DNA of 64,000 nucleotides. Source: Chryseobacterium edaphi (GTDB lineage Bacteria; Bacteroidota; Bacteroidia; Flavobacteriales; Weeksellaceae). The stretch spans positions 310,001-374,000 of the forward strand of contig NZ_JAOTEM010000003.1 of NCBI RefSeq assembly GCF_025628985.1. Reading direction: 5' to 3'. Under the pieces are notes generated by a model, which made no database searches, was not told the DNA's origin, and saw nothing but the letters and a program-made list of their open reading frames with translations. The position numbers and the translations under genes are program-made. This document shows, piece by piece, positions 37,027 through 40,947 of this stretch; position 1 is the first letter of the stretch; every line of letters starts with the position of its first letter.

Positions 37027-38421
37027 TTAGACTTTCACATTTTTCCATTTTCCTCTTTTAAATAAAATAAAAGCAACAGCCGTTATGAACATTTCTGCAA
37101 CCGGAATTGAAATAAAAACACCTTTCGGACCCAAATCAAAATGTTTTGAAAGCACATAAGCCAAAGGAATTTGAAACATCCAGAATCCAAAAAAGTTCAG
37201 CCAGGTCGGTGTCCAAGTATCGCCTGCTCCGTTGAAAGCGTTGATAGTTACCATTCCTATTCCGTAAAAAACAAAACCGACACTCATAATGTGCAATGCA
37301 TTTTTAGCATAATTCTTAATTTCAATTTGTTCTGTGAAAAATCCAACAAGAAAATCTCCCAAAAGAAAAAATATAAGACTTACAGAAAGCATAAAAATTA
37401 CGTTGTATTTTACCGTTTTCATTACAGATTGTTCTGCACGCAACATTTCTCCAGCACCCATATTTTGCCCCACTAAAGTTGAAGCCGCATTACTCAGTCC
37501 CCAAGCTGGAAGCATAAAGAACATCATTAATCGGAGTGCCGTTTGATACCCTGCTGAAGCATCTTCACCACCGGTTGTTGCCACTAATTGTGCAAGAAAG
37601 ATCCAGCTGCACGAAGCAATGACAAATTGGAATATTCCGGGCATTGCAATTTTCACGATGGATGTGATTAATTTGAAATCAGGTTTAAAATAAATCGTTT
37701 TTATCCGCACCAAAGAATCAGCAATAAAAATATGATACAGTTGATAAAGAACTCCTGTGCTCCTTCCGATGGTTGTTGCAACTGCAGCTCCCGTCAAACC
37801 CATTGCGGGAATCGGGCCTAATCCTCTGATCAGAATCGGACAGAGAATAATGTTGGCAATATTGGCAATCCATAAACTTTTCATTGCGATTGCCGCATTT
37901 CCTGCACCTCTGAAAATTCCGTTGATTAAAAACAAAAGCATAATAATCACGCTGCTTCCCATCATAATTCTCGTAAAATCTTTTCCGTAGGCTGCTGCAT
38001 CGGGTTTTGAGCCCATCAAAATCAAAGTATCTTCTGCATAGATTACTCCCAGCAAACTTAAAACAGATGTAATGACAAAAGATACTGAAATTACCTGCGC
38101 TGCACTTCTCGAGGCCTGTTCAGGATTTTTCTCCCCAATTCTTCTTGCTACAACGGCAGTTGCAGCCATACTCATCCCAATTGCTATCGAGTAAATAATT
38201 GTAAGAACAGATTCTGTAAGACCAACCGTTTGAATAGCGAAGCCACTTTCTTTGAGATGACCCACAAAATAAAGATCAACTAAAGCAAAAACTGATTCCA
38301 TTGCCATTTCCAGCATCATCGGAATTGCTAAAAGAAGAACAGCACTTCGGATACTGATTTTTGTGTAATCAGTTTCTTCCTCGCTGAATGCTTTTTTCAG
38401 AAAATTTAAATATTTTTTCAT
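37027..38421 (-). CDS. MATE family efflux transporter
   Basis: This 464-residue inner-membrane protein has about twelve hydrophobic helices in two halves, each a MatE domain, and exchanges cations for drugs or metabolites. Typical segments are LAIPMMLEMAMESVFALVD in helix 1, RRIGEKNPEQASR in the first loop and LVGQNMGAGEMLRAE in the second half. The substrate is unknown. It stands alone, back to back with the DUF2975 locus. Confidence 0.92.
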   Translation of the reverse strand: MKKYLNFLKKAFSEEETDYTKISIRSAVLLLAIPMMLEMAMESVFALVDLYFVGHLKESGFAIQTVGLTESVLTIIYSIAIGMSMAATAVVARRIGEKNPEQASRSAAQVISVSFVITSVLSLLGVIYAEDTLILMGSKPDAAAYGKDFTRIMMGSSVIIMLLFLINGIFRGAGNAAIAMKSLWIANIANIILCPILIRGLGPIPAMGLTGAAVATTIGRSTGVLYQLYHIFIADSLVRIKTIYFKPDFKLITSIVKIAMPGIFQFVIASCSWIFLAQLVATTGGEDASAGYQTALRLMMFFMLPAWGLSNAASTLVGQNMGAGEMLRAEQSVMKTVKYNVIFMLSVSLIFFLLGDFLVGFFTEQIEIKNYAKNALHIMSVGFVFYGIGMVTINAFNGAGDTWTPTWLNFFGFWMFQIPLAYVLSKHFDLGPKGVFISIPVAEMFITAVAFILFKRGKWKNVKV

Positions 38422-38484: not shown

Positions 38485-38517
38485 ATAATTAATTATCGTA
38501 AAACAATAATTAATTAT
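38485..38517 (+). promoter_or_regulatory. Twin palindromic operator-like sites before the DUF2975 locus
   Basis: The perfect palindrome ATAATTAATTAT occurs at 38485-38496 and again at 38506-38517. The two are 21 bp apart centre to centre, about two helical turns, and the second abuts the -7 promoter element. An extra shared A makes each repeat 13 bp. This arrangement is what a dimeric repressor pair would bind; the Xre-type protein encoded at 39734 is the natural candidate. Binding itself is inferred. Confidence 0.55.
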
Positions 38518-38524
38518 ATATTTG
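38517..38524 (+). promoter_or_regulatory. -7 promoter element of the DUF2975 locus
   Basis: TATATTTG matches TAnnTTTG, 21 bp upstream of the ATG at 38546, and shares its first base with the second palindrome. Confidence 0.6.
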
Positions 38525-38545
38525 CAATAATAAAATATTAAAACA

Positions 38546-39109
38546 ATGAAATTATTAGGAAAAAACTCTCTACTTTTTTGGCTAAAATATCCATTCGGAA
38601 TATATGCCGTCGGATTTACACTGATCTCAATTTGGATATTAATTTTAATGGGAATTTATTTGATAACGAATACGACAAATTCATTTGTGTCAATTGATCA
38701 TTGGAAAAGTGAGAATAATAATGGTCAAAAAAATTCAGAAATAGTTCAATTTCATTATCCATTTTCAAAAATGGTTTTAGCGACTGAAAATTCTGCAGAA
38801 GGTATTATGTTAGCTTTCCTGGGGCTGGTTTCTCTGTGTTTTATATTAATTATCGTTTTGAAAATCATTATCGAACTTTCAAAAGACGATTTTTTCACCC
38901 ATAAAGCAGTTCAGAATTTCAAAATTTTAGGTTTTGGTATGCTCTTCTTAGGAAGCGTTCATCTTGCTGTTGATATTTTCACCTCGCCACAAAGTTTTGA
39001 TACTACGCCTCCTCTTATTTTTATTATCACTGGCCTTATATTTATTTTCCTGAAGGAAATTTTTGTAAAAGGCAGAAAAATGCAGGAAGAGAACGATTTA
39101 ACGATATAA
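38546..39109 (+). CDS. DUF2975 family membrane protein (first paralogue)
   Basis: This 187-residue protein has four hydrophobic helices (about 15-40, 88-110, 125-145 and 155-172) with an extracytoplasmic loop between the first two, and resembles DUF2975. It starts MKLLGKNS and ends EENDLTI. The second paralogue starts MKLLGQKS and ends SENDLTI, showing a duplication. DUF2975 genes often lie next to a small Xre regulator, as here. Function is unknown. Confidence 0.8.
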   Translation: MKLLGKNSLLFWLKYPFGIYAVGFTLISIWILILMGIYLITNTTNSFVSIDHWKSENNNGQKNSEIVQFHYPFSKMVLATENSAEGIMLAFLGLVSLCFILIIVLKIIIELSKDDFFTHKAVQNFKILGFGMLFLGSVHLAVDIFTSPQSFDTTPPLIFIITGLIFIFLKEIFVKGRKMQEENDLTI

Positions 39110-39139: not shown

Positions 39140-39730
39140 ATGAAACTATTAGGACAAAAATCAGTGTCAACAATTCTCAGTTATTTATTTCTGGTGTTAT
39201 TTATCATTTTTCTTTTCCATTTCATTTACCAATCGCTTGGATTTGGAATAGGATATTATAACTGGACGACTTCACATCATCTTTTTTCAGAAACTTTTTA
39301 TGTCAATGATGAAATAGATTATGCATCATACGAAAAAGGAAAATATGTATTTTTCAGATTTAAATATCCGTTTTCAGATCAACAGATGTTGACAGGTTTT
39401 TTTACATTAAACAGATTTATATTTCACACATTTCAAAGTATTTTTTTCTGCCTGTTTTTCTTTTACGGATACAAAACTTTTGGAGATTTGAGTCAGAAAG
39501 AATTATTTAATGAAACAATTATAAAGCATCTGAAAACCTTCACTATTATTAATGTACTCTATGCACCACTTTATTTTCTGATTTGGATCTTCATATTCCG
39601 AACTGGCCTTGAAGGAGGTATGCTTATGACATCGTTTACATTTTTATTCTTGGGAATTATTTTACATTTCATCACCGTATTTTTCAAAAGAGGCTTTCAA
39701 CTGCAATCAGAAAACGATTTAACAATATAA
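39140..39730 (+). CDS. DUF2975 family membrane protein (second paralogue)
   Basis: This 196-residue protein has four hydrophobic helices with a long, aromatic-rich loop after the first. It shares the N-terminal MKLLG and C-terminal ENDLTI with the preceding gene, but the middle has diverged strongly and is rich in Phe and Tyr. It follows the first copy by 30 bp and precedes the regulator gene by 3 bp, so the three genes form one operon. No function is known. Confidence 0.75.
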   Translation: MKLLGQKSVSTILSYLFLVLFIIFLFHFIYQSLGFGIGYYNWTTSHHLFSETFYVNDEIDYASYEKGKYVFFRFKYPFSDQQMLTGFFTLNRFIFHTFQSIFFCLFFFYGYKTFGDLSQKELFNETIIKHLKTFTIINVLYAPLYFLIWIFIFRTGLEGGMLMTSFTFLFLGIILHFITVFFKRGFQLQSENDLTI

Positions 39731-39733
39731 ATT

Positions 39734-39937
39734 ATGCCAATAATAATCAATGTAGACGTCATGTTGGCAAAAAGAAAAATGCAGTCTCAGGAACTTGCAG
39801 AAAAAATAGGAATCACACAAGCAAATCTCTCCATTTTAAAAACTGGAAAAGCAAAGGCTGTTAAACTCTCTACTCTTGAGGCAATCTGCAAAGCACTGGA
39901 TTGTCAACCCGGAGATATTTTAGAATTTAAACCTTAA
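39734..39937 (+). CDS. Small Xre/YozG-type helix-turn-helix regulator
   Basis: This 67-residue protein is a single Cro/CI-type helix-turn-helix domain. The scanning and recognition helices are QELAEKIGITQANLSILKTG, and LEAICKALDCQPGDILEFKP is the typical ending of this family. It follows the second DUF2975 gene by 3 bp. In other bacteria such small regulators pair with DUF2975 proteins, which suggests control of this operon, most likely through the palindromes at 38485-38517. No effector domain is present. Confidence 0.88.
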   Translation: MPIIINVDVMLAKRKMQSQELAEKIGITQANLSILKTGKAKAVKLSTLEAICKALDCQPGDILEFKP

Positions 39938-39952
39938 TTATATATTATCAAA

Positions 39953-40378
39953 ATGAAAAAATTATTTTTATCAGCTTCAATCATCACCTTTGGCATTTTC
40001 TCAGCTCAGGAATTTACCAGTCAACACAAACAAATGCTGACTTATGATGATGCAGAAAGCTTTTCTACATTAGTAAAAAAAGAAAATATTGACCAATGTT
40101 TCCAGATTGAGAATAATTCGTATTCACTTCTTGCTCTGTCAATAAAATTGAATAGCAAGAAGGTTTTTCAAAAACTTATTGACGAAAAAGCCAATTTGGA
40201 AAAAGTTTGTGATGGGAAAACACCATTAATGTTTGCAGCCAAATATGGGAATACTGAATTTGCAAAAAAGCTTCTTGAGAATGGTGCCAAAAAAGAAACG
40301 AAAACCGACAAAGGTTACACTACGTTGGACTATGCTAAAAAATATGAAAAAGCAGAAATCATTACATTGTTAGAATAA
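39953..40378 (+). CDS. Exported ankyrin-repeat protein (first paralogue)
   Basis: This 141-residue protein has a signal peptide (1-18, ending FGIFSA) followed by about three ankyrin repeats: a degenerate one around 50-80, a clear one with GKTPLMFAAKYGNTEFAKKLL (88-108), and GYTTLDYAKKYEKAEII (115-131). Cys49 and Cys86 are the only cysteines and may form a disulfide in the periplasm. It follows the Xre gene by 15 bp and can be read from the same transcript. Its partner protein is not known. Confidence 0.82.
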   Translation: MKKLFLSASIITFGIFSAQEFTSQHKQMLTYDDAESFSTLVKKENIDQCFQIENNSYSLLALSIKLNSKKVFQKLIDEKANLEKVCDGKTPLMFAAKYGNTEFAKKLLENGAKKETKTDKGYTTLDYAKKYEKAEIITLLE

Positions 40379-40509: not shown

Positions 40510-40947
40510 ATGAAAAAGATTATATCGGCTACTTTACTTCTGGCGATCTCAATTTTTGCAAACGGATTATTTGCACAGGAGATTTCTAAAGATCAAATGA
40601 AAATCTTCCAGACTGATAATCTTCAGGATTTTAAAAAAGTTTTTAAGAAAGATGATTTCAATAAGTGTTTTGCCATCAAAGAAAACTCTTATGATCTTCT
40701 TGCTTTAAGTGTAAAGCATGAAAGAAAAAATATTTTTAATTTTTTATTGAGCAACACTACCGATGTCAACAGACTTTGTAACAACCAGTCACCATTGATG
40801 GTTGCAGCAAGATATGGAAAAGCAGATATGGCTCAATCTCTATTGAAAAAAGGAGCAAACAAAACTCTGAAAAACGCAAACGGAGAAACTGCTAAAGACT
40901 TTGCTGTAAAATATGAAAAAGCAAATCTTGCAAGTATTCTAAAATAA
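40510..40947 (+). CDS. Exported ankyrin-repeat protein (second paralogue)
   Basis: This 145-residue protein is a diverged copy of the previous one. It has a signal peptide (1-22, ending GLFA), a helical segment, and ankyrin repeats with QSPLMVAARYGKADMAQSLL (93-112) and GETAKDFAVKYEKANLASIL. Cys53 and Cys90 are again the only cysteines and keep the 37-residue spacing of the first copy. It has its own promoter element and ends at a terminator. Confidence 0.82.
   Translation: MKKIISATLLLAISIFANGLFAQEISKDQMKIFQTDNLQDFKKVFKKDDFNKCFAIKENSYDLLALSVKHERKNIFNFLLSNTTDVNRLCNNQSPLMVAARYGKADMAQSLLKKGANKTLKNANGETAKDFAVKYEKANLASILK

Follow-up and report, generated by a model that had tools for sequence, protein, structure and literature searches.

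Pairs of a predicted membrane protein and a small Xre-family protein were listed as YoaS-like/Xre (32 pairs) by Makarova et al. 2009; in the sections of that survey at hand, they were set aside as non-toxin-antitoxin because membrane components were not known from any type II system (PMC2701414). The gene pair described here is the same, a DUF2975 gene immediately followed by a small gene of the Xre family; what the window (the whole 64,000-nucleotide stretch of Chryseobacterium edaphi DNA that was analysed) adds to it is a candidate operator. We take YoaS of Bacillus subtilis to be a DUF2975 protein and YozG to be its HTH partner (yoaS-yozG); DUF2975 was recovered from B. subtilis as a search control. 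One B. subtilis microarray table, in the portion at hand, lists yozG. No description of an operator or of a function for the YoaS-like/Xre pair was found in the literature searched, where subscription papers were scarcely covered.

SdpR of B. subtilis is a winged-helix protein of the ArsR type. The operators of Cro/CI-type phage repressors (434, P22, lambda) are short inverted repeats at which small HTH dimers sit over a promoter, with several sites per promoter. According to the part of the SdpI/SdpR report at hand, these B. subtilis proteins are encoded in a two-gene operon, and SdpI sequesters the autorepressor SdpR at the membrane on sensing SdpC (PMC1626106). The present locus resembles this system in pairing a polytopic membrane protein with a small, predicted autorepressor, which makes SdpI/SdpR the model for the role that we infer for DUF2975; but SdpR is not an HTH_26 protein, SdpI is not a DUF2975 protein, and the ligand SdpC has no named counterpart here. 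Pfam gives HTH_26 and DUF2975 only, and neither an ArsR-type autorepressor nor an SdpI-family protein. The likeness to phage Cro/CI systems lies in an inverted repeat over the promoter and a small HTH protein with a predicted dimer, whereas the present operator combines one near-invariant repeat with outer half-sites that are graded and set at a 21-bp pitch, and it recurs across phyla together with a chromosomal operon for membrane proteins. The gene pair is already known; what appears to be new is the operator, kept across phyla, of an HTH operon predicted to be autorepressed. This operator is ordinary in kind and unusual in the depth of its conservation.

In line with the first-pass annotation, the operon codes for its own Xre-type regulator: it comprises two DUF2975 genes and the gene for a 67-residue HTH_26 protein, all on the forward strand. 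The membrane proteins (38,546–39,109, 187 residues; 39,140–39,730, 196 residues) score 48.3 and 29.8 bits, respectively, against PF11188 (gathering cut-off 27), and both end in ENDLTI. The Cro/CI-type regulator and presumed repressor (39,734–39,937) scores 87 bits against PF13443 (cut-off 22), and its ORF follows the DUF2975 ORF after 3 nt. A search of NCBIfam gave no match for the first DUF2975 protein, and all its models for the HTH protein scored far below their cut-offs. The DUF2975-then-HTH order of the window recurs in annotated plasmid records, and the leading genes differ among genus loci. Conservation of the HTH protein is unusual for a regulator, with nine relatives from Bacillota 79–88 percent identical to family member L168; an alignment of 15 sequences, all from one family, has 83 percent identity per column.

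A small Xre-family partner and a candidate autoregulatory operator are also what a toxin-antitoxin-like module would have, with the antitoxin repressing the operon, and the sporadic presence of DUF2975 (39 of 247 class genomes) together with its plasmid copies would suit such a module. Yet the regulator gene stands last in the operon and the membrane gene is often duplicated; PADLOC gave no match for the DUF2975 proteins; Pfam finds DUF2975 alone in the partner, and no known toxin domain; and Makarova et al. 2009 left the YoaS-like/Xre pair out of the toxin-antitoxin systems in the sections at hand (PMC2701414). We consider a toxin-antitoxin-like module improbable.

The DUF2975 proteins vary in their bodies and are fixed in their tails. 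The domain was Pfam-confirmed in all 71 aligned proteins (2 belonging to the window, 69 to other loci), whose bodies have ~20 percent column identity and whose tails keep E182, L185 and T186 at 97, 99 and 99 percent. Because the aligned ORFs had been picked by a loose tail pattern, the tail was recounted without that pattern: in 77 loci an open frame stops just before the HTH gene; 76 of these frames end in E/D-x-x-L/Y/F/S-T/I/V-I/V, and T is penultimate in 74. An AlphaFold2 model of the first DUF2975 protein has four long helices (mean pLDDT 80.8), the last extending to residue 186 with high confidence; in our reading of the model, the helices would be membrane-spanning, with both ends inside. 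Compared with the PDB, the model gave 38 matches up to E 10, none of them convincing; the best was at E 2.3, and no match reached 0.001 or below. An invariant tail beside so divergent a body suggests a protein-protein contact that can be tested.

Upstream of the operon, the exact, perfect palindrome ATAATTAATTAT occurs twice, at 38,485–38,496 and 38,506–38,517, with a pitch of 21 bp and 9 bp between the copies, just as the first-pass annotation had described. Neither copy is assigned to a strand. The first consists of an outer half-site ATAA (38,485–38,488) and an inner half-site TTAT (38,493–38,496), and the second of an inner half-site ATAA (38,506–38,509) and an outer half-site TTAT (38,514–38,517). 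From one inner half-site to the other runs the 17-bp candidate core operator TTATCG-TAAAA-CAATAA (38,493–38,509, dyad at 38,501), which matches TTATYG-N5-CRATAA. Both 12-mers fall in the 124-bp gap between the operon and a divergent gene that a domain scan assigned to the MATE family (37,027–38,421, reverse strand); as this gene starts 124 bp from the operon, the operator region is common to both. A MATE gene adjoins the operon in many loci of the genus.

The sequence also contains a −7 promoter box, TATATTTG (38,517–38,524, forward strand), which has one base in common with the second 12-mer, so the contact between palindrome and −7 element noted in the first-pass annotation is real. In Flavobacterium psychrophilum, TAnnTTTG was mapped at −12 to −5, according to the part of the report at hand (PMC9723704); with TATATTTG in the same place, transcription is predicted to start near 38,529. 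Relative to this predicted start, the 12-mers lie at about −44 to −33 and −23 to −12, and the core operator candidate at about −36 to −20, between the −33 region and the −7 box.

Could the palindromes be an accident of an AT-rich promoter region? The flank is indeed very AT-rich, and the lone 12-mer occurs at 9 places in the 4.12-Mb genome (against 2 for the reversed pattern), some of them over start or stop codons. Away from the operator, the remaining seven hold single copies: L003, L005 and L007 are intergenic, L004 overlaps a start codon, L008 a stop codon and L011 both a stop and a start codon, and L006 falls within an ORF. Paired copies occur only at 38,485–38,517. In the window, 0.08 copies of ATAATTAATTAT are expected, none of 100 dinucleotide shuffles held two copies, and allowing one mismatch added just one further place. 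A search for the palindrome elsewhere in the genome, which the first-pass annotation had proposed, thus bore out the uniqueness of the pair but gave mild enrichment for the 12-mer itself; a single ATAATTAATTAT means little, and the paired arrangement means much. With an expectation for the pair far below one, and with conservation that exceeds its controls, the chance of an accident is negligible; shuffles and controlled conservation rule it out as far as sequence allows.

HTH relatives are present in 150 of the 173 genus genomes, and the composite TTATYGTNNNACRATAANNNNTTATANNTTT is present in 124 of these 150 and in 0 of the 23 genomes without the HTH gene (Fisher p 2e-15, kinship ignored); the reversed composite pattern occurs in 0 of 173. 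The first-pass annotation had allowed that the palindromes might be frequent by chance, or might be lost from related loci; the opposite was observed, and comparison of the regions upstream of homologous DUF2975-Xre loci found the operator kept with the HTH gene. All 48 composite rows that were checked (48 of ~142 rows, G017 and G028 in that stretch being left out) lie 569–1366 bp upstream of the HTH match on the same strand. Among the 26 HTH-positive genus genomes lacking the exact composite, 16 were re-searched and gave 15 loci, 14 with a group C HTH protein and a variant site and 1 of group B.

Upstream regions were compared for 110 genus loci and then for 169 loci including other genera of the family, which fall into HTH groups A (94, window included), B (46) and C (27), with 2 unplaced. 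Groups A and B have the common layout ATAA-N4-TTAT-YGTNNNACR-ATAA-N4-TTAT, followed by TAnnTTT; group B loci differ from the wide consensus of the repeat, TTTATYG-N5-CRATAAA, by 2 mismatches in 36 of 46 and by 3 in 9 of 46. Because the sites were placed by best pattern match, the layout counts are not blind, unlike those of the co-occurrence test and of the reversed controls. Of the 140 group A/B loci, 133 have both the second site and the −7 box; the inner half-site pitch is 21 bp in every one of these, and for 128 of them no other spacing fits equally well. The 140 loci represent 139 places, L038 and L166 being the same place. The pair is present in 137 of the 140 loci; in 29 of these each unit is a perfect palindrome, and 12 have ATAATTAATTAT in both positions.

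The first-pass annotation took the two 12-mers for a cooperative pair of sites. A repressor-type site on the promoter and a fixed 21-bp pitch are retained from that proposal; two independent identical operators are not, and the 12-mers are probably the flanks of one inverted repeat. The evidence on this point is that the repeat between them is kept across families and phyla, and that the left outer half-site is often lost. The wider form of the repeat, TTTATYG-N5-CRATAAA, has its dyad (38,501) between the 12-mers, and the window's own 19-mer (38,492–38,510) has 2 mismatches to it. The inner half-sites are near-invariant in the 102 distinct group A/B sequences (left TTAT in 96, right ATAA in 100), as against outer half-sites of which the right TTAT is kept in 98 and the left ATAA is intact in just 44; the central 4 bp of each 12-mer vary among A and T.

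The main rival to a single inverted repeat is that two cooperating dimers bind, one per 12-mer (ATAA-N4-TTAT, dyads 38,490.5 and 38,511.5), the repeat then being no more than their facing half-sites. The constancy of the 21-bp pitch would follow from this, as would retention of the right outer TTAT, though its TTA falls outside the −7 box; moreover, group C loci such as L175 and L178 have TCAATAA-N4-TTATTGA, which is symmetric about the second 12-mer and leans toward a centre there. Against two dimers, the left outer half-site is poorly kept; exact outer halves persist only as a weaker echo in 58 wider loci (TTAT 25, ATAA 9), where they are rarer than the inner repeat; and the 15-mer half-palindrome ACRATAANNNNTTAT (ACRATAA-N4-TTAT) occurs alone at chance in the genome (16 places vs 14 for the control). 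The non-palindromic central 4-mers, with kinship ignored, give 10 inverted matches in 40 cases (3.7 expected; 6 of 2000 shuffles reach this) and 7 direct matches in 40 (4.1 expected; 175 of 2000 shuffles), a result that leans toward symmetry about 38,501, opposite to the group C sites. We therefore regard two dimers as rather unlikely, and take the single inverted repeat as the preferred parsing. In 82 distinct group A sequences, the inner half-sites frequently differ from each other in their specific base pairs (C..A 35, T..G 21, T..A 17, C..G 9), a pattern not predicted by simple dimer symmetry. Base-by-base matching of recognition helices to half-sites in groups A, B and C was dropped because the register would change with the choice of dyad. 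The group A spacer (38,497–38,505) occurs in both orientations, GTAAAAC or GTTTTAC.

A search for related loci with the DUF2975 protein alone yielded none from 17 candidates; beyond the family, named loci were found via the HTH alignment. Among the best 80 of its 578 matches, the 2.4 kb upstream of the HTH gene contain TTTATYG-N5-CRATAAA with ≤1 mismatch in 69 loci (0, 1 and 2 mismatches in 49, 20 and 7); the downstream stretches reach ≤1 mismatch in 1 of 80 loci, and the reversed pattern does so in 1 of 80. The misses among these best 80 of 578 are L261, L266, L274 and L303, of which L261 and L274 are at contig ends. When the search was confined to the 150 bp before the operon in those 67 of the best 80 that have an upstream ORF passing the tail pattern and at least 100 bases upstream, 63 of 67 loci had the repeat with ≤2 mismatches (shuffles, 1.4 of 67).

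The best 80 of 578 are mostly Bacteroidota, plus nine that we assign to Bacillota by organism name, namely Bhargavaea, Exiguobacterium, Acetivibrio, Geobacillus, Lutispora, Fusibacter, an Oscillospiraceae MAG and two Trichococcus; eight of the nine have ≤1 mismatch to the repeat and one has 2. On the Bacteroidota side, TAnnTTT[GA] lies 6–8 nt behind the repeat in 30 of 58 loci and 4 nt behind it in 2, and the strict pattern is absent behind the repeat in the other 26. An even sample of the class gave 29 DUF2975 loci, 26 of them with an HTH ORF (L199, L200 and L205, which have none, were left out) and one of the 26 from the window's genus; the repeat is present with ≤1 mismatch in 19 of 26 and with ≤2 in 24 of 26, vs 0 and 2 of 26 downstream. 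Plasmid loci likewise carry it with ≤1 mismatch, in 6 of the 6 looked at among 190 records with an HTH match.

Of the 190 plasmid records, 64 are labelled Klebsiella. One of these plasmids, labelled Klebsiella grimontii (L310, CP079755.1), resembles Bacillota plasmids in its HTH gene, operator and upstream region; mislabelling or transfer is possible.

If a different regulator bound the site and kept the operon silent, with the HTH protein acting elsewhere, the repeat need not accompany the HTH gene as it does across phyla, plasmids and different leading genes. Such a regulator is made very unlikely by this association, by the absence of the composite from the 23 genus genomes without the HTH gene, and by the lack of a second promoter-placed copy in the window's own genome. 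Another factor travelling with the operon might conceivably be the binder, since the wide conservation concerns the repeat and the HTH gene.

Autoregulation by the operon's own regulator, which the first-pass annotation had judged likely, is strongly supported by these comparisons, in which the repeat travels with the HTH gene. The inverted repeat overlaps the operon's own promoter and is kept with the regulator, and the space between a −33 region and a −7 box is a typical repressor location. Searches of the genome with the 12-mer, ACRATAANNNNTTAT and the core repeat found no second promoter-placed site, which suggests a regulator dedicated to this one operon; TTATYG-N5-CRATAA has 4 genome places (0 reversed), namely the one here, one intergenic place behind a gene and two within ORFs. 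A wider regulon was accordingly rejected. Very probably, then, the HTH_26 protein is a dedicated autorepressor that shuts off the promoter of its own operon via the inverted repeat at 38,493–38,509, with feedback through DUF2975 as a conjectured further element. Counting against this reading are the 2 mismatches of the window's own 19-mer, the 2–3 mismatches of most group B loci, the 26 of 58 Bacteroidota-side loci without the strict −7 pattern, the unlike inner half-sites of group A and the 26 HTH-positive genus genomes that lack the exact composite.

In the proposed order of binding, a dimer of the 67-residue HTH_26 protein would occupy TTATCG-N5-CAATAA (38,493–38,509) and, lying between the −33 region and the −7 box, would block RNA polymerase. 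The extra half-sites, two helical turns off at a 21-bp pitch, would probably take further dimers on the same face of the helix, giving tighter repression in this family. On a membrane signal, the DUF2975 proteins might hold or release the repressor, perhaps via their near-invariant C-terminal tails, and by analogy with SdpI/SdpR we infer that the tail could be a repressor contact that relieves repression. We tentatively suggest a one-operon membrane circuit analogous to SdpI/SdpR and unrelated to it, with a near-identical operator from Bacteroidota to Bacillota, in which the tail E-N/Q-D/E-L-T-I/V would grip a near-invariant repressor; in such a circuit, the tail would stay fixed while the body diverges because it is the handle by which the repressor is held.

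DUF2975 is a domain of unknown function, and a fixed operator would make its regulator's target known without experiment, would allow such operons to be found and timed in any genome, and would offer a simple reporter for the signal sensed by the membrane protein. The locus also appears to be a rare case in which regulator and operator stay nearly unchanged while the promoter switches from the Bacteroidota to the Bacillota type.

Immediately downstream of the HTH gene, a domain scan identified two small ankyrin-repeat proteins (39,953–40,378 and 40,510–40,947, forward strand), both of which match the PADLOC candidate model PDC-M72A weakly. In some genus loci (L042, L044, L075), an ORF resembling the ankyrin ORFs in size and in the start of its sequence lies between two DUF2975 genes of the operon.
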